A stretch of DNA of 64,000 bases from an uncultured Maribacter sp. (GTDB lineage Bacteria > Bacteroidota > Bacteroidia > Flavobacteriales > Flavobacteriaceae), in assembly GCA_947498505.1 (NCBI GenBank), contig CANMKG010000002.1, positions 248,001-312,000 of the forward strand, given 5' to 3'. Shown here piece after piece: positions 8,292-63,981 of this stretch. Within the stretch, counting starts at the first letter, position 1. Each line of letters begins with the position of its first letter. Both the position numbers and the translations under genes were made by a program. Below the pieces are notes generated by a model. It had not been told where the DNA came from. It ran no database searches and was given only the letters and a program-made list of their open reading frames with translations.

Positions 8292-9654
8292 TGATTTCTT
8301 GATTATTAGCTTTGGTATTTTTAATAGTTCCCTGCAATACGTCATCAAAAACAATTGGGGGTCTATAATCCTTATTTACTGTTTTTATTTGAATATTGTT
8401 AACCGAAAGTTGCTTCACATGTCTTGCAAATATTCCGTGTGCAGGAAGTGTTCCTAACAAATGGAATTCAGGCCACCATCCATCTAAAACGTCTAGAGTG
8501 TATTCTTTAAAATGGGTTTTTTTAGTATCTTCCTTTGTTCCACCGCCAGAAACGATCATTTGCACATTGTTGAGTTGAACATCGGTAATATAATTACCTG
8601 GCATACCCGTGATAAAAATGGCTGAATTTTTGTCTAATTTACTATTGTCAGCAATGATGTCAGTAAAAATAAAATGATGCATAGCCTTCATAGGATACAT
8701 TTCTTCAGGAGCGTCAACACATGCTTTTTGTTGCGCAAAAGTCATAAAAATAGGTCTGGGAACATTGTTCATTATTAAATTGGAGAAGGTCATGTTTTTC
8801 ATTTCTCCTCCTTCGTTAAGTTGAATTTTTAAACCAGAATCGTCAATGTCGTTAAACGTACAGTTTGTAACGCTCACGGATTCAATATCTCCTCTGGATA
8901 ATAACCCAATACGCATTCCAGCCCACTTGCTTGTAAAGGTACAGTTCGTCACTACAATATTTTTGCTTGGTTTATTTGGAAGCGAGGCTTGAATACAGAT
9001 AGAATCGTCGCTAGTATCAAATGAACTATTGGCTACTCTAACATTCGTGCAACCATCAAAATCTAAACCATCACCATTGTTATTTGCTCTACTTACAATT
9101 TTAATTCCATCAACAACAATTTCATTACAGTATAGCCAAGCTGAGGTCCATGCTGCTGGATTTTTTATAGTAACATCTTTTAGATGAATGTCGTTACTAT
9201 TCAAAAAACGCATGAGCATTGGTCTTCCAGTTTCTCTTGTAAAATTTTTGAAGTAACCATTTCCGTCAATTGTACCATAACCTTCAATAGCAAAAGATTT
9301 TGCCTCTTGCGCAAAAATTAAACAACGATCCATATGAGGTTCGTTTTTGTACATGTTTTTATGCGTGTCGGTAGCATAATTTTTAATATTTGAACTTCCC
9401 AATAACGTAGCCCCGTTTTCGATATGTAAAGTGACATAACTTTTCATATAAATGGTTCCAATAAGAACGGTTTTCCCAGAAGGAATTAATACTCTACCTC
9501 CTCCGTTTTTTGTACAGGTATCTATGGCTTTTTGGACCGCTTTTGTGTCTAACGTAATGCCATCCGCTTTTGCACCAAAATCTATAACATTATAGTCTTT
9601 GGAATACAAGTATGTTGTAAATAATAGAACTAGAACAGGAAGAATTTTTCTCAT
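8266..9654 (-). CDS. Secreted GH28-like parallel beta-helix glycosidase
   Basis: Second beta-helix enzyme of GH28 type, 462 residues. A Sec signal peptide ends at about LYS (residue 19). It opens with NVIDFGAKADG and GGGRVLIPSG, and has the catalytic-region blocks NNGDGLDFDGC and DTSDDSICIQ with the paired aspartates. As in its neighbour, the canonical GHG motif is absent; SKWAGMRIG stands in its place. The two genes are clearly paralogous (same length, same block order), overlap by 26 bases and are read together. A gap of 116 bases separates this gene from the upstream sulfatase, so an internal promoter is possible, although none was recognised. The expected role is exo- or endo-cleavage of a uronic-acid- or galactose-containing linkage; the true substrate is not visible from sequence. 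Confidence 0.83.
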   Translation of the reverse strand: MRKILPVLVLLFTTYLYSKDYNVIDFGAKADGITLDTKAVQKAIDTCTKNGGGRVLIPSGKTVLIGTIYMKSYVTLHIENGATLLGSSNIKNYATDTHKNMYKNEPHMDRCLIFAQEAKSFAIEGYGTIDGNGYFKNFTRETGRPMLMRFLNSNDIHLKDVTIKNPAAWTSAWLYCNEIVVDGIKIVSRANNNGDGLDFDGCTNVRVANSSFDTSDDSICIQASLPNKPSKNIVVTNCTFTSKWAGMRIGLLSRGDIESVSVTNCTFNDIDDSGLKIQLNEGGEMKNMTFSNLIMNNVPRPIFMTFAQQKACVDAPEEMYPMKAMHHFIFTDIIADNSKLDKNSAIFITGMPGNYITDVQLNNVQMIVSGGGTKEDTKKTHFKEYTLDVLDGWWPEFHLLGTLPAHGIFARHVKQLSVNNIQIKTVNKDYRPPIVFDDVLQGTIKNTKANNQEINEAIFINQ

Positions 9655-9770
9655 TTTATTAAGAACTAATTAGTTTTAAGTTTGACGTATGCTCTATTTT
9701 TATTGTCATAGTATTGGTTCCTTTTACATTATATAGACTAAAATAAAGAACAATATTATCACTTCTTTTT

Positions 9771-11429
9771 TCATTCAAGATGGACCTTTTTGGTAGATTC
9801 TAATTGACTGTCCATAGTATATCTTCTCACTTTTGGTATTCCATCGCCTCTTGCAAATTCTATTTTATTTTTCCAGACTGATTTTAGATTTTGGAGGATA
9901 TTCTTATGTTGTTTTTCATGAATGAGATTGTTTAGTTCGTCTGGATCATTTTTTAAATTATAAAGTTCTTCATATACGGGCTGTTCTCCATTTAGTGGAG
10001 ACTCAATAAAATCTCTATAAACAGGGATATCAGCATCATGAACAGCATATAACATTTGTTTTTCTTTAATACCTAATTGTTTTGCTACGCTAATTTTTTG
10101 GCTTGCCGAAAAGGTATTGTTTTTGTAATATCTAATGTATTTCCACTCTTTGTTTTGAACAGCCTCACAACGAGGATTGCCAAATTGAGTAGACCACAAA
10201 TTTTCAGTAAATAAATGAGTTCTTGGTTCATTATTACCACCATTAACAAGGTTCATAATATCTTTTCCTTGAAATTCTATAGGGATTGAAACGTTTCCTG
10301 AGGCAAGTATAGTTGGAGCTATATCTGTGCTTTGAACCAATGCATTACTCTTAATACCTTTGTTTTTTTTCTTCGCCTCTGGGTTCATAATTATCAGGGG
10401 TACATGTGTTACTTTCTCATAACAAAAAGCCTTGCCACCTAAGCCTTGTTCTCCCATAAATAAACCATGATCCGAGGTAAAAATGATAATTGTTTTTTTG
10501 TCTAATTTTAGTTCTTTAAGCTTTTTTATCAGATTTCCAACCATGCGATCAATACCGGTCATTGCCTGAAGTTGTCTAATATATCTTTCTTTAACATCTT
10601 GTGGAGTATCTACATAACTATATCCTTTTTGACGGTCATAGGTTCGAAGTAAATCTTTTGGAAGTTTAGGGGTTTTTATATTGGCTTTTGCAATATAATT
10701 ACTTGGTAAAGGAATGTTTTTATCACGGTAAAGTGATTTGTATATGGCATCATCTTCAGGTTTCAGGAGCATTGTACTGGTACTTGCTCCATGAGGTAGA
10801 TTAAAGTTAATAGACAATAGAAAAGGTCTGTTTTTTGGTCGATTTTCTAAAAACTTAATGGCTCCCTTTAACCTTCTTTCATTACCATCTAGAAAATAAT
10901 TTGCCCCTTCTGAAATAATTTCTGGTTGCGTATGTGCTACGGCATCATTGAATATGGAATGTCTTTCTTTGGGATAAAAGCTTAGGTGGCCGTGACCTGC
11001 GTACCAATAATCAAAACTTTGTTCCATTAAACTACTTTGATAACCGCCATCGCCAATTGGGGCGTGGTTTTTACCAATCCATCCCGTATAATAGCCTGCT
11101 TTTCTCATAAGCATAGGATATGATTTTTTCCATGCTTCGGGTGAGACACTGGTTCCAGAATTAAAATTTACACTATGTTTTCGTTCAAACTGACTTAATA
11201 AAATAGATATTCTGCTTGGTGTGCAAATTGCGCTTGTAACATGAGCGTTTGTAAATAGTGTTCCTTCATTAGCTAAGTTGTCAATATTAGGAGTTTGCAC
11301 AATAGTATTACCTGTACAACCCATCATACCATAAGATTGGTCATCGGTTAAAACAAACACAATATTTGGTTGATTTTGAGCCAAGATAAACTTGACCCCT
11401 AATAGCAACAATAAAGCTATTTTTTTCAT
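9771..11429 (-). CDS. Secreted S1-family sulfatase
   Basis: Second formylglycine sulfatase, 552 residues. The start is set at MKKIALLLL, which directly opens a Sec signal peptide ending near LAQ (about residue 17); the longer frame only adds 14 non-signal residues. This ATG lies four bases after the stop of the GH29 gene. Motifs are NIVFVLTDDQS (metal aspartates), CTPSR with C69 as the formylglycine site, KNHAPIGDGG, LPHGAS and TSDHGLFMGEQGLGGK (metal Asp-His pair). It differs in length and motifs from the sulfatase at 1599-3149, so the two probably act on different sulfate positions or linkages. It is likely periplasmic. Conversion of the Cys needs an anaerobic or aerobic maturase that is not in this window. 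Confidence 0.92.
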   Translation of the reverse strand: MKKIALLLLLGVKFILAQNQPNIVFVLTDDQSYGMMGCTGNTIVQTPNIDNLANEGTLFTNAHVTSAICTPSRISILLSQFERKHSVNFNSGTSVSPEAWKKSYPMLMRKAGYYTGWIGKNHAPIGDGGYQSSLMEQSFDYWYAGHGHLSFYPKERHSIFNDAVAHTQPEIISEGANYFLDGNERRLKGAIKFLENRPKNRPFLLSINFNLPHGASTSTMLLKPEDDAIYKSLYRDKNIPLPSNYIAKANIKTPKLPKDLLRTYDRQKGYSYVDTPQDVKERYIRQLQAMTGIDRMVGNLIKKLKELKLDKKTIIIFTSDHGLFMGEQGLGGKAFCYEKVTHVPLIIMNPEAKKKNKGIKSNALVQSTDIAPTILASGNVSIPIEFQGKDIMNLVNGGNNEPRTHLFTENLWSTQFGNPRCEAVQNKEWKYIRYYKNNTFSASQKISVAKQLGIKEKQMLYAVHDADIPVYRDFIESPLNGEQPVYEELYNLKNDPDELNNLIHEKQHKNILQNLKSVWKNKIEFARGDGIPKVRRYTMDSQLESTKKVHLE

Positions 11430-58009: not shown

Positions 58010-58058
58010 AGGAGTGTGATAAAGGTTTAGGCTATTAAACTTTTCCATTCGTCTACAG

Positions 58059-58074
58059 TAAAATGCATTTTACC
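58059..58074. repeat. 16-bp perfect palindrome GTAAAATGCATTTTAC
   Basis: Perfect palindrome in the 121-base gap between the DUF457 gene and the receiver gene. It lacks a T run, so it is not a clear terminator, and it may be an operator for the signalling genes downstream. Confidence 0.35.
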
Positions 58075-58130
58075 GAAGATTGATAATTTTTTTATGTATT
58101 TTAACTGAAATTTGTAGTAAAATTACCACT

Positions 58131-58535
58131 ATGTTAAATATTTTATTTATTGAAGATGATGCAATCGAAACCATGAAATTGCATCGTACCCTAGCAAAGC
58201 TACAATTTAATCATAAAATTGTTGAGGCTAAAAATGGCGAGGAAGCACTCGCGCATTTAAATTCGGACGAGGTACTACCCGATGTTATTCTTTTAGATTT
58301 AAACATGCCTAAAATGAGCGGGATAGAGTTTTTGAAAATACTTAAGGATGATGCTATAATGAAATATCTTCCTACAGTTGTATTGACAACATCTGAAAAT
58401 CGAGCAGATTTATTAGAATGTTATAAAATTGGAATTGCAGGATATGTGATAAAACCATTAAAATATGAGGATTACGAGACTAAATTAGCCAGCGTGTTTA
58501 AATATTGGGAAAATAATGAGTTAGTTAAAGCCTAA
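58131..58535 (+). CDS. Stand-alone response regulator receiver
   Basis: Single CheY-like domain of 134 residues, with acidic pair IEDD (about 8-10), phospho-acceptor D56 in ILLDLNMPKMSG, the TTSEN switch and the KPLKYED lysine. The start is ATG 58131; the longer frame starts with TTG. The pattern is of Rcp1 type, with no output domain. It lies 88 bases before the H-NOX operon on the same strand but precedes a separate promoter. It may receive phosphate from one of the two kinases downstream. Confidence 0.88.
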   Translation: MLNILFIEDDAIETMKLHRTLAKLQFNHKIVEAKNGEEALAHLNSDEVLPDVILLDLNMPKMSGIEFLKILKDDAIMKYLPTVVLTTSENRADLLECYKIGIAGYVIKPLKYEDYETKLASVFKYWENNELVKA

Positions 58536-58623: not shown

Positions 58624-59169
58624 ATGAAAGGAATTATATTTACGGAATTCTTAGAAATGGTAGAGTCAAAATTTGGCTTAGAAGTTGTTGATACTATCAT
58701 TGAGGACTCCAATCTCCCCTCAGAAGGCATCTACACATCTGTAGGTACTTACGAATTTGCAGAAATGATTAGTTTAATTACTAATCTTAGCAATAATGTT
58801 AAAGTTCCCCAGGGAGACCTTATCTATGCATTTGGTCTTTATTTGTTTACAAGTTTAGTAAAAGCTCACCCCGATGTGGTGGATAGGTATAAATCTCCTA
58901 TTGTGCTTTTGGCATCTATAGAAGATCATATACATGTTCATGTAAAAAAGTTGTACCCAGAATCAGAACTTCCAACATTTAAAATATTAGAGAAAACAGA
59001 AGATTCTATTTCTTTAATTTATTGTTCCACTCGTGGTCTATATAGACTAGCCCACGGTTTAATAGAAAAATCCTTTCAGCATTTTAACAAAACGGCTTCA
59101 GTTAAATATAGTTTAATGAAGGACGATGGTACTGAGGTTAAATTTGATATTAAACAAAATGGAGAATAA
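58624..59169 (+). CDS. H-NOX haem domain sensor protein (NO sensor)
   Basis: Stand-alone H-NOX protein of 181 residues. The proximal haem ligand is H104 in the H-x-x-V-x-K-L-Y-P block (DHIHVHVKKLYP), and the Y-x-S-x-R haem-carboxylate motif is Y133-C-S135-T-R137, both two positions later than H102, Y131, S133 and R135 of the Thermoanaerobacter protein. The residue at the position of the oxygen-stabilising distal Tyr140 is Leu142, so an NO-selective rather than O2-binding pocket is expected. The kinase gene downstream starts 11 bases inside this gene. Known bacterial H-NOX proteins inhibit a partner histidine kinase when NO is bound. Confidence 0.93.
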   Translation: MKGIIFTEFLEMVESKFGLEVVDTIIEDSNLPSEGIYTSVGTYEFAEMISLITNLSNNVKVPQGDLIYAFGLYLFTSLVKAHPDVVDRYKSPIVLLASIEDHIHVHVKKLYPESELPTFKILEKTEDSISLIYCSTRGLYRLAHGLIEKSFQHFNKTASVKYSLMKDDGTEVKFDIKQNGE

Positions 59170-60754
59170 AGAGACTACCCTGCTTAAAAAGGCCATTGAA
59201 AGACAAAAAAAAGCTAGACAACAAGCAGAAAGAATACTGGAAGAAAGGTCAAAAGAACTTTATGATACTGCAGAGCATTTAAGACAGACCAATAAGATTC
59301 TTGAAAACCTTTTAGCGCAAAAAACAACGCAGTTAGACAATGTTTTTGTTAATATTATTGATCCCTATGTTGTAATGGATTTAAAAGGGAAAATAATAAA
59401 AATGAATTCTGCAGCAGAAGAGTTTTTAGGGTATACTGTTAAAGATAATGTCTCTTTGGCAAGTTTAGTGCATCCGGACTATAAGGAGTATACAAAAGCT
59501 TCATTTAAATCTCTTTACGCAACAGGATTAATAAAAAAGTATAGCCCAAGAATAAATACTAAAAACAAAGGTTTTAGATATGTTGAAGTAAACGGTAGTT
59601 TAATTAAGGATAAAACAGGAACGCCAGTTGCTGCGCAGGGTATTTTAAGAGATATTACCCATGAAATAGAGATAAAATCGCTTTTAGATTTACAAAAGCA
59701 GAGACTAGATATCATTGTTGAAAATTCGCCTTTAGGTATTTGGTTAACCTCCAACGATAAATTGGTTAAAGCCAATAAAGCTATTGAAAAAATGTTGGGT
59801 TATACTGAGGAGGAATTAAAATCTATGAATGCGATGGATATTACCTCGGTTGATAGTTTGCAGACTTCACAAGATTATAGAAAACAATTATTTGCAGGTG
59901 AAATAGATGATTTTACCATGGTGAAAAAGTATCTACGGAAAAATGGTTCTTATTTTTCTGCAAAAACTACAGTTACCGCTGTTAGAAACCTTATCGGGGA
60001 GTTAAAATATGAGGTAGCTTTAATCGAAGATATTACTCATGAATTAGAGTTAGAGGAAGAAAAAAAGCAGTTGGTAAAAGATTTAGAAACCAGTAACCAA
60101 GGCTTACAAGAATATGCGCATATTGTTTCACATGATTTAAAATCTCCTCTTAGAAGTATAAGTGCTCTTACAACTTGGATGTACGAAGATTATAAAGACA
60201 AGTTAGATGATAATGGCGTTTATAATCTAAAAATGATGCAGGAAAAAGTCGAATCTATGGATAAGTTAATAGACGGAATTTTAAAGTATTCTACTATTAA
60301 GAGTGACCATTTAGACAATTCTTTGGTAAATGTAAATGAGGTAGTAAAGGAAATTGTGGATGTTATTTACATTCCAGATCATGTAGAGGTAAAATGCGTT
60401 AACGAGCTACCTACAATTTATGCGGATAGAACAAAAGTTCACCAACTAATTCAAAACTTTTTAAGCAACGCTGTTGTTCATATTGAAAGAGAAAAAGGGT
60501 TAGTTGAGGTTGGATGTGTGGAGCGCAAGAAATATTGGGAATTTAGCGTTAAAGATAATGGAGTAGGAATACCAAAAGAGTATCACGAAAAAATATTCAA
60601 AATTTTTCAATCTATTGGTAATAAAGAAAGGTCAACCGGAATAGGGTTATCTATTGTGAAAAAAATAATTGACCTATATGAAGGTAAGGTATGGTTAGAA
60701 AGTGAAATAGGAGTAGGAACTACCTTTTTCTTCACCCTAAAAAAACAAAAATGA
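59159..60754 (+). CDS. PAS histidine kinase, likely H-NOX partner
   Basis: Cytoplasmic kinase of 531 residues without transmembrane segments. An N-terminal coiled coil (about 5-55) is followed by two PAS domains (about 60-175 and 180-300), a second short coiled coil, HisKA with H325 in AHIVSHDLKSPLRS, and an HATPase domain with NFLSNAVVH, KDNGVGIP and GIGLSIVKK. The start ATG 59159 overlaps the H-NOX stop by 11 bases, meaning tight co-translation, as in known H-NOX/kinase pairs. Its product overlaps the FIST gene by four bases (ATGA). NO-dependent control of autophosphorylation by the H-NOX protein is inference from family behaviour. Confidence 0.92.
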   Translation: MENKETTLLKKAIERQKKARQQAERILEERSKELYDTAEHLRQTNKILENLLAQKTTQLDNVFVNIIDPYVVMDLKGKIIKMNSAAEEFLGYTVKDNVSLASLVHPDYKEYTKASFKSLYATGLIKKYSPRINTKNKGFRYVEVNGSLIKDKTGTPVAAQGILRDITHEIEIKSLLDLQKQRLDIIVENSPLGIWLTSNDKLVKANKAIEKMLGYTEEELKSMNAMDITSVDSLQTSQDYRKQLFAGEIDDFTMVKKYLRKNGSYFSAKTTVTAVRNLIGELKYEVALIEDITHELELEEEKKQLVKDLETSNQGLQEYAHIVSHDLKSPLRSISALTTWMYEDYKDKLDDNGVYNLKMMQEKVESMDKLIDGILKYSTIKSDHLDNSLVNVNEVVKEIVDVIYIPDHVEVKCVNELPTIYADRTKVHQLIQNFLSNAVVHIEREKGLVEVGCVERKKYWEFSVKDNGVGIPKEYHEKIFKIFQSIGNKERSTGIGLSIVKKIIDLYEGKVWLESEIGVGTTFFFTLKKQK

Positions 60755-61884
60755 AAGTTCAGCAGGCAGTTAAAAAAGAGGGAGAAGCATGGGAGTTTTT
60801 TCCAGAAAGTAAAAATTTAAACAAACCTTTAGTACTGGTTTTCGGAAACCGATATTTATTGGAAGATAAAAATTTGTACCAAGAGGTAAGAAACTATTAT
60901 CCCGAAGGTGAAATTGTTTTTGGGTCAACATCAGGTGAAATTATTCATGATAAAGTACTAGACAACAGTATTTGCTTAACTGCCGTTGAGTTCGAAAAAA
61001 GTTCGTTTATAGTAAAAAGTGCTAACGTTACTGATACTTCTGGTGACATAGAGCAATTAGGAGTTAACTTGTTTAAAAATCTTCCCAAAGAAAACCTTAA
61101 ACACATATTTGTTATATCTGAGGGGAGCACTGTTAACGGCAGTACTTTAATTGCTGGTTTAGAAAAGCATTTAAATGATGGTGTGAATATTTCTGGCGGA
61201 TTATGTGGAGATGGACCTAGATTTGAAAGAACTTTAGCTTCTTATAACACCAATCCAAGTGATGGAGAAGTTGTTGTAGTTGGCTTTTATGGAGATAGTC
61301 TTGAAGTGAGTTGTGCAAATCATGGCGGTTGGACAAGCTTTGGGCCAGAACGGTCAATTACAAAATCTGATAATAACGTTTTGTATGAATTGGATAATCA
61401 ACCAGCTCTTGATTTATACAAATTATATCTTGGAGAAAAGGCTAAAGAATTGCCAGAAGCTGCATTGTTATATCCATTAAATTTAAAAATACAGGGAGAA
61501 TCAGAAACCTTGGTGAGAACTATTTTAAACATTAATGAGAAGGATAATAGTATGATTTTAGCTGGAGATGTTCCAGAAGGAGCTACAGTGCAGCTAATGA
61601 TGTCTACTGTTGATGATATTGCTGAGGCCGCTTCAACAGCCGCTACTTTTGCAATGCGTGACAGAAAAAATAAACCTCAATTAGGATTATTAGTTAGTTG
61701 TGTAGGAAGAAAATTAGTAATGGATCAACGTACAGAAGAAGAGGTAGAAGAGGTAATAGATGTAATTGGTGATCAGGCTGTGGTAGCAGGGTTTTATTCT
61801 TACGGAGAAATGGCTCCGTTTGCTGGGCAAGACAAATGCAAATTACACAATCAGACAATGACGCTAACACTTATAAGTGAATAA
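60751..61884 (+). CDS. FIST-domain protein of NosP type
   Basis: Protein of 377 residues, cytoplasmic: FIST_N (about 25-215: FGSTSGEIIH, GSTVNGSTL, ISGGLCGDGPRFE) and FIST_C (about 220-360: DNQPALDLYKLYLGE, LLVSCVGRK, VAGFYSYGEMAP). FIST proteins of the NosP group are NO-binding haem sensors that control a neighbouring kinase. The candidate haem ligand is H191 in the NHGGWTSFGPE turn, which is the region assigned to the haem His in NosP. The gene overlaps both kinase genes (ATGA in front, TAATG behind), so kinase-FIST-kinase are one translated block. Haem binding needs test: not all FIST proteins bind haem. Confidence 0.88.
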   Translation: MKVQQAVKKEGEAWEFFPESKNLNKPLVLVFGNRYLLEDKNLYQEVRNYYPEGEIVFGSTSGEIIHDKVLDNSICLTAVEFEKSSFIVKSANVTDTSGDIEQLGVNLFKNLPKENLKHIFVISEGSTVNGSTLIAGLEKHLNDGVNISGGLCGDGPRFERTLASYNTNPSDGEVVVVGFYGDSLEVSCANHGGWTSFGPERSITKSDNNVLYELDNQPALDLYKLYLGEKAKELPEAALLYPLNLKIQGESETLVRTILNINEKDNSMILAGDVPEGATVQLMMSTVDDIAEAASTAATFAMRDRKNKPQLGLLVSCVGRKLVMDQRTEEEVEEVIDVIGDQAVVAGFYSYGEMAPFAGQDKCKLHNQTMTLTLISE

Positions 61885-62945
61885 TGCATCCATTATTAAA
61901 AAGACAAATACGAAAATTTTTGCCTGCTGAAATTGCAGATATGCCTCAATTACAGGATTTCTTGAAGGCGATAGGGAGGTCGTATCAGAATAACGACGAT
62001 AAATTGGAAATGATTCAAAGGTCAACTACAATTAGTTCTAAAGAGCTTTCATATGTTAACGCACAGTTACGCAAGAAAATAGAAAATCAAAAAAAGGTAT
62101 TTGTAACATTAAGTAAAGTGGTTAGTGTTATGGATAATTCAGAAGACGAGGGAGAAGTAAATCAAAATCATAATGAAGTAGATCCTATAAAATTGGCAAC
62201 TAAAATTGAGGAACAAACCAATAAAATTTTACAACTTACTGAAGAACGAAAAAATCTTTTAAAAGATTTAGAAGAGCAAAATGAGTCATTGAATAATTAT
62301 GCACATATGGTTTCTCACGATTTAAAGTCGCCTATAAGAAACATGCACACTTTAATGAGTTGGATTATTGAAAAGGAGCATAATAAGTTTTCTGATGAAA
62401 GTAAATTTAATTGCGACTTGGTAAATCAAAATTTGGTTAAAGTAGATAACCTTATTGAAGGTATTTTGCGCCATGCAACACTAGAGGATTATGAAGAAGA
62501 AAAAACAAATATATCATTGGCTGATTTAATTGATGAAATTAAAAACACCATATACATACCAGATAACATTGAAATAATAATAGACGGGGAACTTCCTGTT
62601 TTACATAAAGATAAATACAAGTTAGAACATTTGTTCAAAAATTTATTTACCAATTCAATAACTGCAACAGAGGGTGTAGAAAACGGACAAATTATAGTTA
62701 AGGCTTCTGATAAAGATGATTATTGGGAGTTTAAGGTAAGAGATAATGGCAAAGGAATCGCTAAAAAATATCAGAATAATATTTTTGATATGTTCACGAA
62801 ACTTGAGAATAACGCAAAAGCAACCGGAATTGGGTTGGCTTTGGTAAAAAAAATTGTAAATATATATGAAGGAAATATTTGTTTGGAGTCTGAATTGGAT
62901 AAAGGAACAGAAGTGTCCTTCACGATTAAAAAAGAAGTAGTATGA
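61884..62945 (+). CDS. Histidine kinase, likely NosP/FIST partner
   Basis: Cytoplasmic kinase of 353 residues. The N-terminus MHPLLKRQIRKFL is of the type found in kinases encoded next to FIST/NosP genes. Coiled coils (about 30-75 and 95-135) lead to HisKA with H145 in HMVSHDLKSPIRN and an HATPase domain with NLFTNSITAT, RDNGKGIA and GIGLALVKK. No PAS domain or receiver. It is paralogous to the kinase at 59159-60754 from the H box onward (both have an YIPD block and the same HATPase ending). Starts at the last base of the FIST stop and ends in a four-base overlap with the Hpt gene. Confidence 0.9.
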   Translation: MHPLLKRQIRKFLPAEIADMPQLQDFLKAIGRSYQNNDDKLEMIQRSTTISSKELSYVNAQLRKKIENQKKVFVTLSKVVSVMDNSEDEGEVNQNHNEVDPIKLATKIEEQTNKILQLTEERKNLLKDLEEQNESLNNYAHMVSHDLKSPIRNMHTLMSWIIEKEHNKFSDESKFNCDLVNQNLVKVDNLIEGILRHATLEDYEEEKTNISLADLIDEIKNTIYIPDNIEIIIDGELPVLHKDKYKLEHLFKNLFTNSITATEGVENGQIIVKASDKDDYWEFKVRDNGKGIAKKYQNNIFDMFTKLENNAKATGIGLALVKKIVNIYEGNICLESELDKGTEVSFTIKKEVV

Positions 62946-63265
62946 CGACTGAGAAACCAAATTTGAACTATATAAAAGAATTAGCTGGAGGTGATAGCTC
63001 ATTTGAACAAAAGTTTTTGGACATTGTTAAAAATGAATTTCCGGTTGAAAAAAAGGAATATCTAGACTGTTTAAATAGAAGGGATAATAATGCAACGGCC
63101 GAGATTGTGCACAAACTAAAACACAAATTAAATATTCTAGGATTACAAGATGGGTACCGCTTGGCTGTTGGGTATGAGGAGGAACTTAAATGCGGAGATT
63201 ACAAGCTTAAAGATGATTTTTTAAGTGTTCTTAACGTAATAGATAATTATATTTTAACCATTTAA
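62942..63265 (+). CDS. Histidine phosphotransfer (Hpt) protein
   Basis: Protein of 107 residues. The four-helix Hpt pattern has AEIVHKLKHKLNILGL with phospho-acceptor H57. The overlap with the kinase gene (ATGA) and the 2-base gap before the LytTR gene indicate that it bridges the two kinases and the response regulator, giving a four-step His-Asp-His-Asp type relay if the lone receiver at 58131-58535 takes part, or direct His-His-Asp transfer otherwise. Confidence 0.87.
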   Translation: MTTEKPNLNYIKELAGGDSSFEQKFLDIVKNEFPVEKKEYLDCLNRRDNNATAEIVHKLKHKLNILGLQDGYRLAVGYEEELKCGDYKLKDDFLSVLNVIDNYILTI

Positions 63266-63267
63266 TT

Positions 63268-63981
63268 ATGAACTGCATAATTGTAGATGACGAAGCTACA
63301 GCCAGGGCAATAGTAAGCAAAATGTGTTCTGATACTCAAAACATGAATGTTCTTGAGGAGTTTTCTAGTGCCATTGATGCCATAAAATTTTTAAACAAAC
63401 AATCTGTAGACGTTGTTTTCTTGGATATCCATATGCCAACGTTTACAGGATTTGATTTTGTTGAAACCTTAAAAGAATCGCCTAAAATTGTATTGGTTAC
63501 TTCTGATAAAGAATTGGCTACTCAGGCATTTGAATATGAAAATATTGTAGACTATTTGGTTAAGCCAATTACGCAAGAACGTTTTAATAAATCTGTGTCT
63601 AAAATTACCACAGCATTAAATAACCAAATAATACTTAATTCAGCGGAGAACAAGCCTGTAAAGCAAAATAATGAGCTATTTATAAATATAGACCACCGAT
63701 TAATAAAGTTGAAATTTGATGAAATTTTGCTTATTAAAGCTTTAGGTGACTATATTAATATTAAGACGGAAAAGGAAGATTATAAAGTACACACTACTTT
63801 AAAAAAGATTAAAGAAAAACTTCCGCAAAATACTTTTGTGCAAACGCACCGTTCGTATATAATAAACTTCACTAAAATTATTGATATTGAAGATAATAGT
63901 GTGTTAATAGCTAAAAATGTAGTGCCTATTAGTAGGTCAAGTAGACCTGAATTAATGCAACATTTAAATTTATTAAAATAA
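63268..63981 (+). CDS. LytTR-family response regulator
   Basis: Regulator of 237 residues: receiver domain (1-120) with DDEA acidic pair, phospho-acceptor D53 in VVFLDIHMP and the KPI lysine, and a C-terminal LytTR DNA-binding domain (about 140-237: LIKLKFDEILLIKALGDYINI, THRSYIINF, VPISRSSRPEL). It is the only DNA-binding output of the operon and the likely end point of the relay. The target genes are unknown; LytTR sites are usually direct repeats with about 9- to 10-base words. The window ends 19 bases after its stop. Confidence 0.92.
   Translation: MNCIIVDDEATARAIVSKMCSDTQNMNVLEEFSSAIDAIKFLNKQSVDVVFLDIHMPTFTGFDFVETLKESPKIVLVTSDKELATQAFEYENIVDYLVKPITQERFNKSVSKITTALNNQIILNSAENKPVKQNNELFINIDHRLIKLKFDEILLIKALGDYINIKTEKEDYKVHTTLKKIKEKLPQNTFVQTHRSYIINFTKIIDIEDNSVLIAKNVVPISRSSRPELMQHLNLLK

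Follow-up and report, generated by a model that had tools for sequence, protein, structure and literature searches.

Bacterial signalling routes that start from the nitric oxide (NO) sensor families H-NOX and NosP mostly end in cyclic di-GMP (c-di-GMP) or in quorum sensing, according to the available sections of PMC8738867 and PMC8846402. In Vibrio, the pairs H-NOX/HqsK and NosP/VpsS feed quorum relays that run from the kinase via LuxU to LuxO, and hybrid kinases pass phosphate to the phosphotransfer (Hpt) protein through a receiver of their own (available text of PMC6769237). The output of the Shewanella H-NOX/HnoK/HnoB network is the turnover of c-di-GMP (available text of PMC8846402). Genes for FIST proteins have been recorded near hnox in 'group 1' bacteria, as a statistic of neighbouring Pfam families (PMC8738867); Cellulophaga and Runella are among the examples of this group (PMC7108781, PMC8738867), and FIST is absent from the main text of PMC7108781. 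Here we describe an operon on a stretch of 64,000 nucleotides of DNA ("the window") from an uncultured Maribacter sp. (contig CANMKG010000002.1, positions 248,001 to 312,000), in which an H-NOX protein, a FIST protein and two histidine kinases (HK1 and HK2) are encoded together with a stand-alone receiver (REC), an Hpt protein and a LytTR regulator. Phosphorelays that are split among separate proteins are known from the Spo0 type, in which phosphate passes from a kinase via Spo0F and Spo0B to Spo0A. NosP reportedly modulates the H-NOX/HnoK/HnoB network of Shewanella as well.

It is quite probable that the operon encodes a four-step phosphorelay that is split among separate proteins, has a second input that can be exchanged, and has LytTR output at a DNA box. 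The gene order, the conserved catalytic residues, the kinship of the kinase cores and the box with the genes behind it were established by comparison of sequences. In many marine Flavobacteriaceae, a single signalling chain appears to be fed by an NO sensor, which is joined in about half of the cases by a second sensor that is exchangeable.

Operon layout and conservation

The operon and its proposed control elements are as follows.
58045..58059, + strand: proposed LytTR box CCATTCGTCTACAGT, one mismatch to the consensus, 29.3 bits with the operon-trained matrix
About 21 bp after the box at 58045..58059, + strand: weaker half-box CATTTTACCG
58107..58114, + strand: predicted -7 element GAAATTTG, one mismatch to TAnnTTTG, 63 bp from the box start
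58131..58535, + strand: REC, stand-alone receiver (PF00072, 3e-21), 88 nt ahead of H-NOX
58624..59169, + strand: H-NOX, predicted haem NO sensor (PF07700, 4e-36, 124.7 bits, cut-off 25.5)
59159..60754, + strand (open reading frame [ORF] start possible at 59126): HK1, soluble PAS-PAS histidine kinase (PAS, HisKA, HATPase_c)
60751..61884, + strand: predicted FIST sensor (PF08495, 4e-42, 144.6 bits, cut-off 23.2; PF10442, 3e-36, 124.9 bits, cut-off 28.5)
61884..62945, + strand: HK2, soluble histidine kinase with an N-terminal LLKRQxRK domain (HATPase_c)
62942..63265, + strand: Hpt phosphotransfer protein of 107 aa with His57, assigned from Pfam matches of orthologues and the invariant H57
63268..63981, + strand: REC-LytTR response regulator, proposed relay output (PF00072 and PF04397, 71.7 bits)

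An original prediction for this locus had recognized the six genes from H-NOX to LytTR. An ORF check bears out their coordinates and their common strand, and their order is widely kept; the count of five tight junctions out of six needs correction, since six genes have five junctions, all five of which overlap or are 2 nt apart. The first gene of the operon, REC, had been overlooked. Within 58080-58140 it possesses a single in-frame ATG, and a TTG at 58080 upstream of it leads to a longer ORF of 151 codons, in which the receiver Asp is D73 (invariant in 78 of 78 aligned sequences). REC is situated ahead of H-NOX in 136 of 140 family loci. It would provide the step that is missing from the direct transfer between the kinases and Hpt that had been proposed: neither HK1 nor HK2 has a receiver domain in a Pfam scan, and in His-Asp-His-Asp chemistry a kinase His does not directly phosphorylate an Hpt His, so a separate REC probably supplies this step. 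The residues of a four-step relay are all encoded: in 122 complete operons every kinase has the H-box, and the REC Asp, the Hpt His (H57 in 75 of 75 aligned operon copies) and the Asp of the LytTR regulator (D53 in 72 of 72) are present. The window's 107-aa protein has no Pfam match, and its assignment as Hpt rests on its orthologues, two of three of which (L105 and L183) pass the PF01627 model, the third being 2 bits short, on the invariant His, and on weak profile matches to solved Hpt domains (E 0.04-0.1), which stand amid unrelated matches equally strong.

A profile search of the window genome (4.08 Mb) gives one match each for the H-NOX and the FIST families. Restriction of the operon to this genome is ruled out by its wide conservation. 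Among 397 genomes of the family, H-NOX is encoded in 146, FIST in 116, and both in 93 (Fisher 8.5e-31; FIST among the matches listed). As predicted, the two genes are neighbours, and they are so in 75 family genomes, both on one strand; FIST lies 1.3-2.8 kb downstream of H-NOX in 74 of these and upstream in one (G253). Gene order was determined for 140 of the 150 family H-NOX matches. Sixty-eight of these loci display the order REC-HNOX-HK1-FIST-HK2-Hpt-LytTR, and 53 the same order minus FIST-HK2. In four loci a divergent FIST (21-28% identical to that of the window) with its own kinase occupies the same slot, five contain FIST and Hpt with no adjacent LytTR, and ten have other or cut arrangements. 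In the named collection, from which 80 of at least 514 loci were kept, 44 are complete and 26 are without FIST-HK2, the carriers including Zobellia, Maribacter, and Cellulophaga. Across 395 genomes of the phylum, H-NOX occurs in 27 and FIST in 89, and place lists put FIST beside H-NOX in 11 of the 27. Genome G544, one of these 11, which belongs to a different family of the same class, carries a complete operon with a box of 28.3 bits.

On a tree of REC, H-NOX, Hpt, and LytTR (131 rows), presence or absence of FIST changes at least 20 times, 10 of these changes being forced by starred branches, and gains and losses are indistinguishable in direction. Some FIST-less loci were chosen deliberately, which means that the proportion they make up in the trees is no frequency. 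The collections overlap and some genomes occur twice (e.g., L155, L271). Identical rows were removed for the FIST presence tree, the motif searches, the box, LytTR and spacing counts and the count of 311 sites given below; they were kept for the gene orders of the named collection and the 140 loci, the kinase tree, the counts of N-terminal domains, of DUF6923 genes after LytTR and of exopolysaccharide genes, and the reversed control. In three FIST-less operons (L109, L111, and L116) a second LytTR-like gene follows right after the first, with the domains checked in L109.

The two sensors

The haem motifs of H-NOX are intact as had been predicted, with H104, Y133, and S135 in 81 of 81 aligned sequences and R137 in 80 of 81. 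The nearest solved chains are 6bde and 6bdd, and 6BDD is the H-NOX of Kordia algicida, as used in PMC7356049 (available text). By H-NOX, the closest named relatives among the matches listed are Maribacter and other Flavobacteriaceae. A distal-pocket Tyr (Tyr140) is what we take to mark the O2-binding type of H-NOX. The position that we equate with it, residue 142, is F in 29, L in 10, and M in one of 40 aligned sequences and Tyr in none of them, so NO is the likely ligand and the protein likely fits the NO-selective subgroup. The exceptional genome G253 (locus L043; H-NOX at 9441-9983, minus strand) has its FIST gene immediately ahead of a distinct H-NOX gene, whose product shares 20% identity with that of the window; a gene for a kinase of 1156 aa follows this H-NOX. 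Locus L115 (G049) holds a decaying copy of the operon, with a TAG inside the H-NOX frame and a FIST fragment of 140 aa.

The FIST protein had been taken for a NosP-type NO sensor on account of H191. This residue is present in the window protein, but only 19 of 64 aligned copies have H there (Y in 27, F in 7; the alignment includes three divergent FISTs and one fragment). H366 belongs to a C-terminal stretch HNQT; 60 of the 64 have H at this position, and it is invariant in a set of 37. Measured against the NCBIfam NosP equivalog, with its cut-off of 450 bits as the criterion, the protein scores 61.9 bits (5e-17), and by sequence no convincing match to a related solved structure was obtained. 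An identification as NosP is thus unsupported by residue and by model, and we leave the ligand of FIST unassigned because H191 is variable and the NosP score stays at 62 bits. For the same reasons it seems unlikely that H-NOX and a NosP act here as two haem NO sensors in a circuit that compares two NO ranges or requires both, even if the weak match to the NosP model is significant and NosP-type FIST proteins are kinase regulators that bind haem as well as NO (PMC12570481, PMC8738867, in their available sections). The 53 family loci without FIST-HK2 point in the same direction, as they have the same box, which is about equally frequent in FIST-bearing (84%) and FIST-less operons (88%). Tandem arrays of 3-4 consecutive genes from a weaker-scoring FIST group occur, among the matches listed, in genomes G225, G101, G069, G261, G368, and G078, which are without an H-NOX match.

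The relay, its second kinase and the upstream box

In the proposed relay, H-NOX would set the activity of HK1, and the FIST protein would set that of HK2, probably via the N-terminal domain of this kinase. HK1 and HK2, whose cores are related, would phosphorylate one shared REC, which would pass the phosphate to His57 of Hpt and from there to the LytTR regulator. Receiver-less kinases often act straight on a response regulator, and REC lies 88 nt ahead of H-NOX in the window; one might expect from this that HK1 and HK2 phosphorylate LytTR directly, with REC outside the relay and Hpt or REC serving as phosphate sinks. We consider such a scheme improbable, for REC, Hpt, and LytTR are retained together in 125 of the 140 loci, the distance between REC and H-NOX is at most 30 nt in 44 of the 68 complete family operons (median 2 nt), and a dedicated Hpt would hardly be sensible without a preceding receiver.

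The proposed output of this relay is the box upstream of REC. Two separate de novo motif searches, one in 191 operon upstreams (ACCATTCGTCgACACT; log-likelihood 2267, width 24, shuffled control 80) and one in 59 upstreams of DUF6923 genes (ACCATTCgTCTACACT; log-likelihood 619, width 24, shuffled control 79), arrive at the same word, well above the shuffled controls. The repeats of the box are spaced by 21 bp in 60 cases, and spaced direct repeats of this kind presumably fit the type of site bound by LytTR domains. A weight matrix trained on 154 operon sites finds 311 unique sites of at least 19 bits in operon-bearing loci and none in the reversed control; 173 of them precede REC, 38 DUF6923 genes and 68 other genes, 31 have no gene within 330 nt, and one is inside an ORF. 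With a stricter pattern, in which one mismatch is allowed, 161 sites were found in 95 of 395 family genomes, compared to 5 for the reversed pattern, and genomes with H-NOX (80/146) hold it far more often than others (15/249; Fisher 7e-28). Among operons with LytTR, 149 of 174 carry a box of at least 15 bits; none of the five without LytTR does. At DUF6923 promoters a -7 peak is clear (27/44), and in 21 of 44 the distance between the box start and TAnnTTTG, which we take to be the -7 element of Bacteroidota, is 62 bp. The box is probably the LytTR site. The regulator would bind direct repeats with a spacing of 21 bp (CCATTCGTCKACACT), at roughly 60 bp ahead of the -7 element, and would most likely activate rather than repress transcription.

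Besides its own operon, the DNA-binding end of the relay probably controls surface-protein and exopolysaccharide genes. Of 201 LytTR loci, 64 have a DUF6923/Por_Secre_tail gene after LytTR and in the same orientation (domains from two members). The families of other boxed genes, counted before removal of duplicates, comprise one of 19 (one member checked: STAS), one of 14 (one checked: group-1 glycosyltransferase), one of 10 that is related to a flippase-like gene in the window's cluster, one of 8 with no Pfam match above cut-off in the checked members, one of 4 (one checked: CAP), one of 2 (one checked: UDP-glucose/GDP-mannose dehydrogenase), and smaller ones. Of 126 loci with sufficient room, 63 hold at least one STAS, flippase, or glycosyltransferase gene downstream of the relay, and in 29 of these 63 a box of at least 15 bits precedes such exopolysaccharide-type genes, compared to 0 of 189 shuffled stretches. 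LytTR would target its own operon, genes whose products are surface proteins exported by the type IX route and, in many relatives, also exopolysaccharide genes, and NO would thereby tune surface and matrix genes at the level of transcription. In loci L329 (235-1416, minus strand) and L342 (238-1419, minus strand) a fusion of a receiver and a family-2 glycosyltransferase (393 aa) is encoded about 100 nt behind a box and about 23 kb downstream of the relay.

The exopolysaccharide cluster of the window genome adjoins the relay.
L041 10462-13257 (G000:C2), just past the window and beyond a TPR gene downstream of LytTR: STAS-like gene of 100 aa, flippase-like gene, and glycosyltransferase gene

Among the matches of a looser pattern in this genome, the best after that of the operon (19.2 bits) lies on another contig, 118 nt ahead of a DUF6923 gene, a family whose members adjoin the relay in other genomes, and three weaker repeats (10-13 bits) are present ahead of a PorP/SprF gene. 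A site of 16.5 bits in L042 has no + strand ORF of more than 90 aa starting soon after it.

Several of these results weigh against the box and regulon as proposed. The 173 sites before REC are circular because the matrix was trained on operon sites, 25 of the 174 LytTR operons score below 15 bits, and the five LytTR-less loci stem from a small number of lineages and do not count as independent cases. At operon promoters the -7 peak is weak, with TAnnTTTG at 55-75 bp in 13 of 160. The stricter pattern is unmatched in the window genome and likewise in its two genus mates, and the looser one has 7 matches in the window genome compared to 5 in the control, for which reason a pattern search of this genome alone was rejected as proof of a regulon. 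No box is found at the adjoining exopolysaccharide cluster of the window (best site -16 bits), though the cluster is boxed in relatives, and as a target in this genome it is unsupported. Finally, 15 of the 249 genomes without H-NOX hold one box each, as might be expected if the box were the site of another regulator sharing the same promoters. This possibility seems rather remote, given that box and LytTR are lost together (0/5), that direct repeats at 21 bp presumably suit LytTR, and that the box tracks genomes with H-NOX.

Kinship of the two kinases connects the second sensor with the relay. Compared with the kinases of its own genome, the catalytic core of HK2 matches that of HK1 with 186 bits and all others with at most 64 bits, which supports convergence of both kinases. 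In a tree of 86 kinase cores, 57 relay kinases and 29 others are separated by one branch with a support of 85, which is not starred and so tempers the argument; within the relay kinases, a starred group of 24 contains HK2, the kinases of divergent FISTs and one unlinked HK2. This tree samples 18 of the 122 complete operons, 10 FIST-less and 5 divergent-FIST operons, one of two unlinked HK2 and 11 of 19 own-genome kinase loci (others were dropped for a missing H-box pattern or for length), and its row L225_67, labelled as a stand-alone FIST kinase, is another kinase of L225. The kinases of L118 and L121 cluster by their core with the HK2 of nearby operons; their N-terminus and the accompanying FIST differ, which we read as a putative sensor swap on a retained kinase core. 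The LLKRQxRK domain at the N-terminus of HK2 is a candidate dock for FIST: it is present in 124 of 124 HK2 (122 of which are the training set), in 2 unlinked HK2 and in 17 stand-alone FIST kinases, and absent from all 218 HK1 and all 5 divergent-FIST kinases.

Away from H-NOX, 75 FIST places occur among the matches listed; 20 regions were examined, one of them spanning parts of two places, and FIST is followed by a kinase in 19, L233 being without a FIST ORF. The unlinked FIST-HK2 pairs are those of L243 (G320) and L244 (G002), whose genomes also hold a FIST-less REC-H-NOX-HK1 locus. That FIST-HK2 is a passenger pair signalling to a different regulator, with the relay fed by H-NOX/HK1 alone, is very improbable, for although FIST-kinase pairs do occur alone (19/20), the kinase cores of 17 of 19 stand-alone pairs fall outside the relay group while HK2 cores nest with HK1 (with one of the two unlinked HK2 in the tree), FIST-HK2 is tightly set between HK1 and Hpt with gaps of at most 30 nt in 67 of the 68 complete operons, and both unlinked pairs share a genome with a REC-H-NOX-HK1 locus (L106 and L119, the former without adjacent Hpt or LytTR). 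HK1 itself follows H-NOX immediately, with a gap of at most 30 nt in 68 of 68.

With its conserved operon, related kinase cores and one box, the convergence of two sensor-kinase pairs on one Hpt/LytTR output that the original prediction had proposed is well supported at the level of sequence. We also entertain, tentatively, a more far-reaching model, in which the REC-Hpt-LytTR core would be a plug-in signalling bus with NO/H-NOX as first input and a second sensor that was repeatedly gained, lost, and exchanged, the kinase core being kept and the sensor gene and docking domain being swapped. FIST might then sense a signal other than NO, and transcription for attachment and exopolysaccharide might depend on both signals.

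Comparison with described systems

The original prediction was aware of no described operon with both sensor families. FIST near hnox is already in print as a neighbourhood statistic, and the gene pairing of 'group 1' bacteria is the same as that of the window operon; the relay itself was not found described, and the relevant sections of the 'group 1' accounts (PMC7108781, PMC8738867) contain no relay, exchangeable slot, box, or regulon. The parts of the system are known already, and for a split relay, an exchangeable second sensor slot, the box with its transcriptional output, and the regulon no description was found in the literature searched, partly seen in sections and with subscription papers mostly outside its scope.

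The system is widespread in marine Flavobacteriaceae, and its likely output can be read from DNA, with the box at its own promoter, at genes for type IX surface proteins and, in many of the relatives, at exopolysaccharide genes. A defined box makes the integration of two soluble sensors directly testable by a reporter, and the FIST module, which was exchanged repeatedly while the kinase core stayed, offers a natural experiment in rewiring sensor kinases while the target is retained.

Like the Vibrio relays, the operon places a soluble kinase under a separate NO sensor and would lead via an Hpt protein (there LuxU) to a DNA-binding regulator (available text of PMC6769237). In contrast, the Vibrio kinases are hybrids with a receiver of their own and share the Hpt protein with quorum sensors, as far as this text describes them, whereas the window operon has a separate receiver protein, two sensor kinases in one operon, and a LytTR output. 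The Shewanella network is similar in that both NO sensor families act on one network, and differs by its c-di-GMP output and the lack of a LytTR output (available text of PMC8846402). In its architecture, the operon differs from the Spo0 type by its other sensors, by a predicted true Hpt and by having all genes in one operon. It resembles this type in having several kinases feed a chain in which the receiver, the phosphotransferase, and the final regulator are each a protein of their own.

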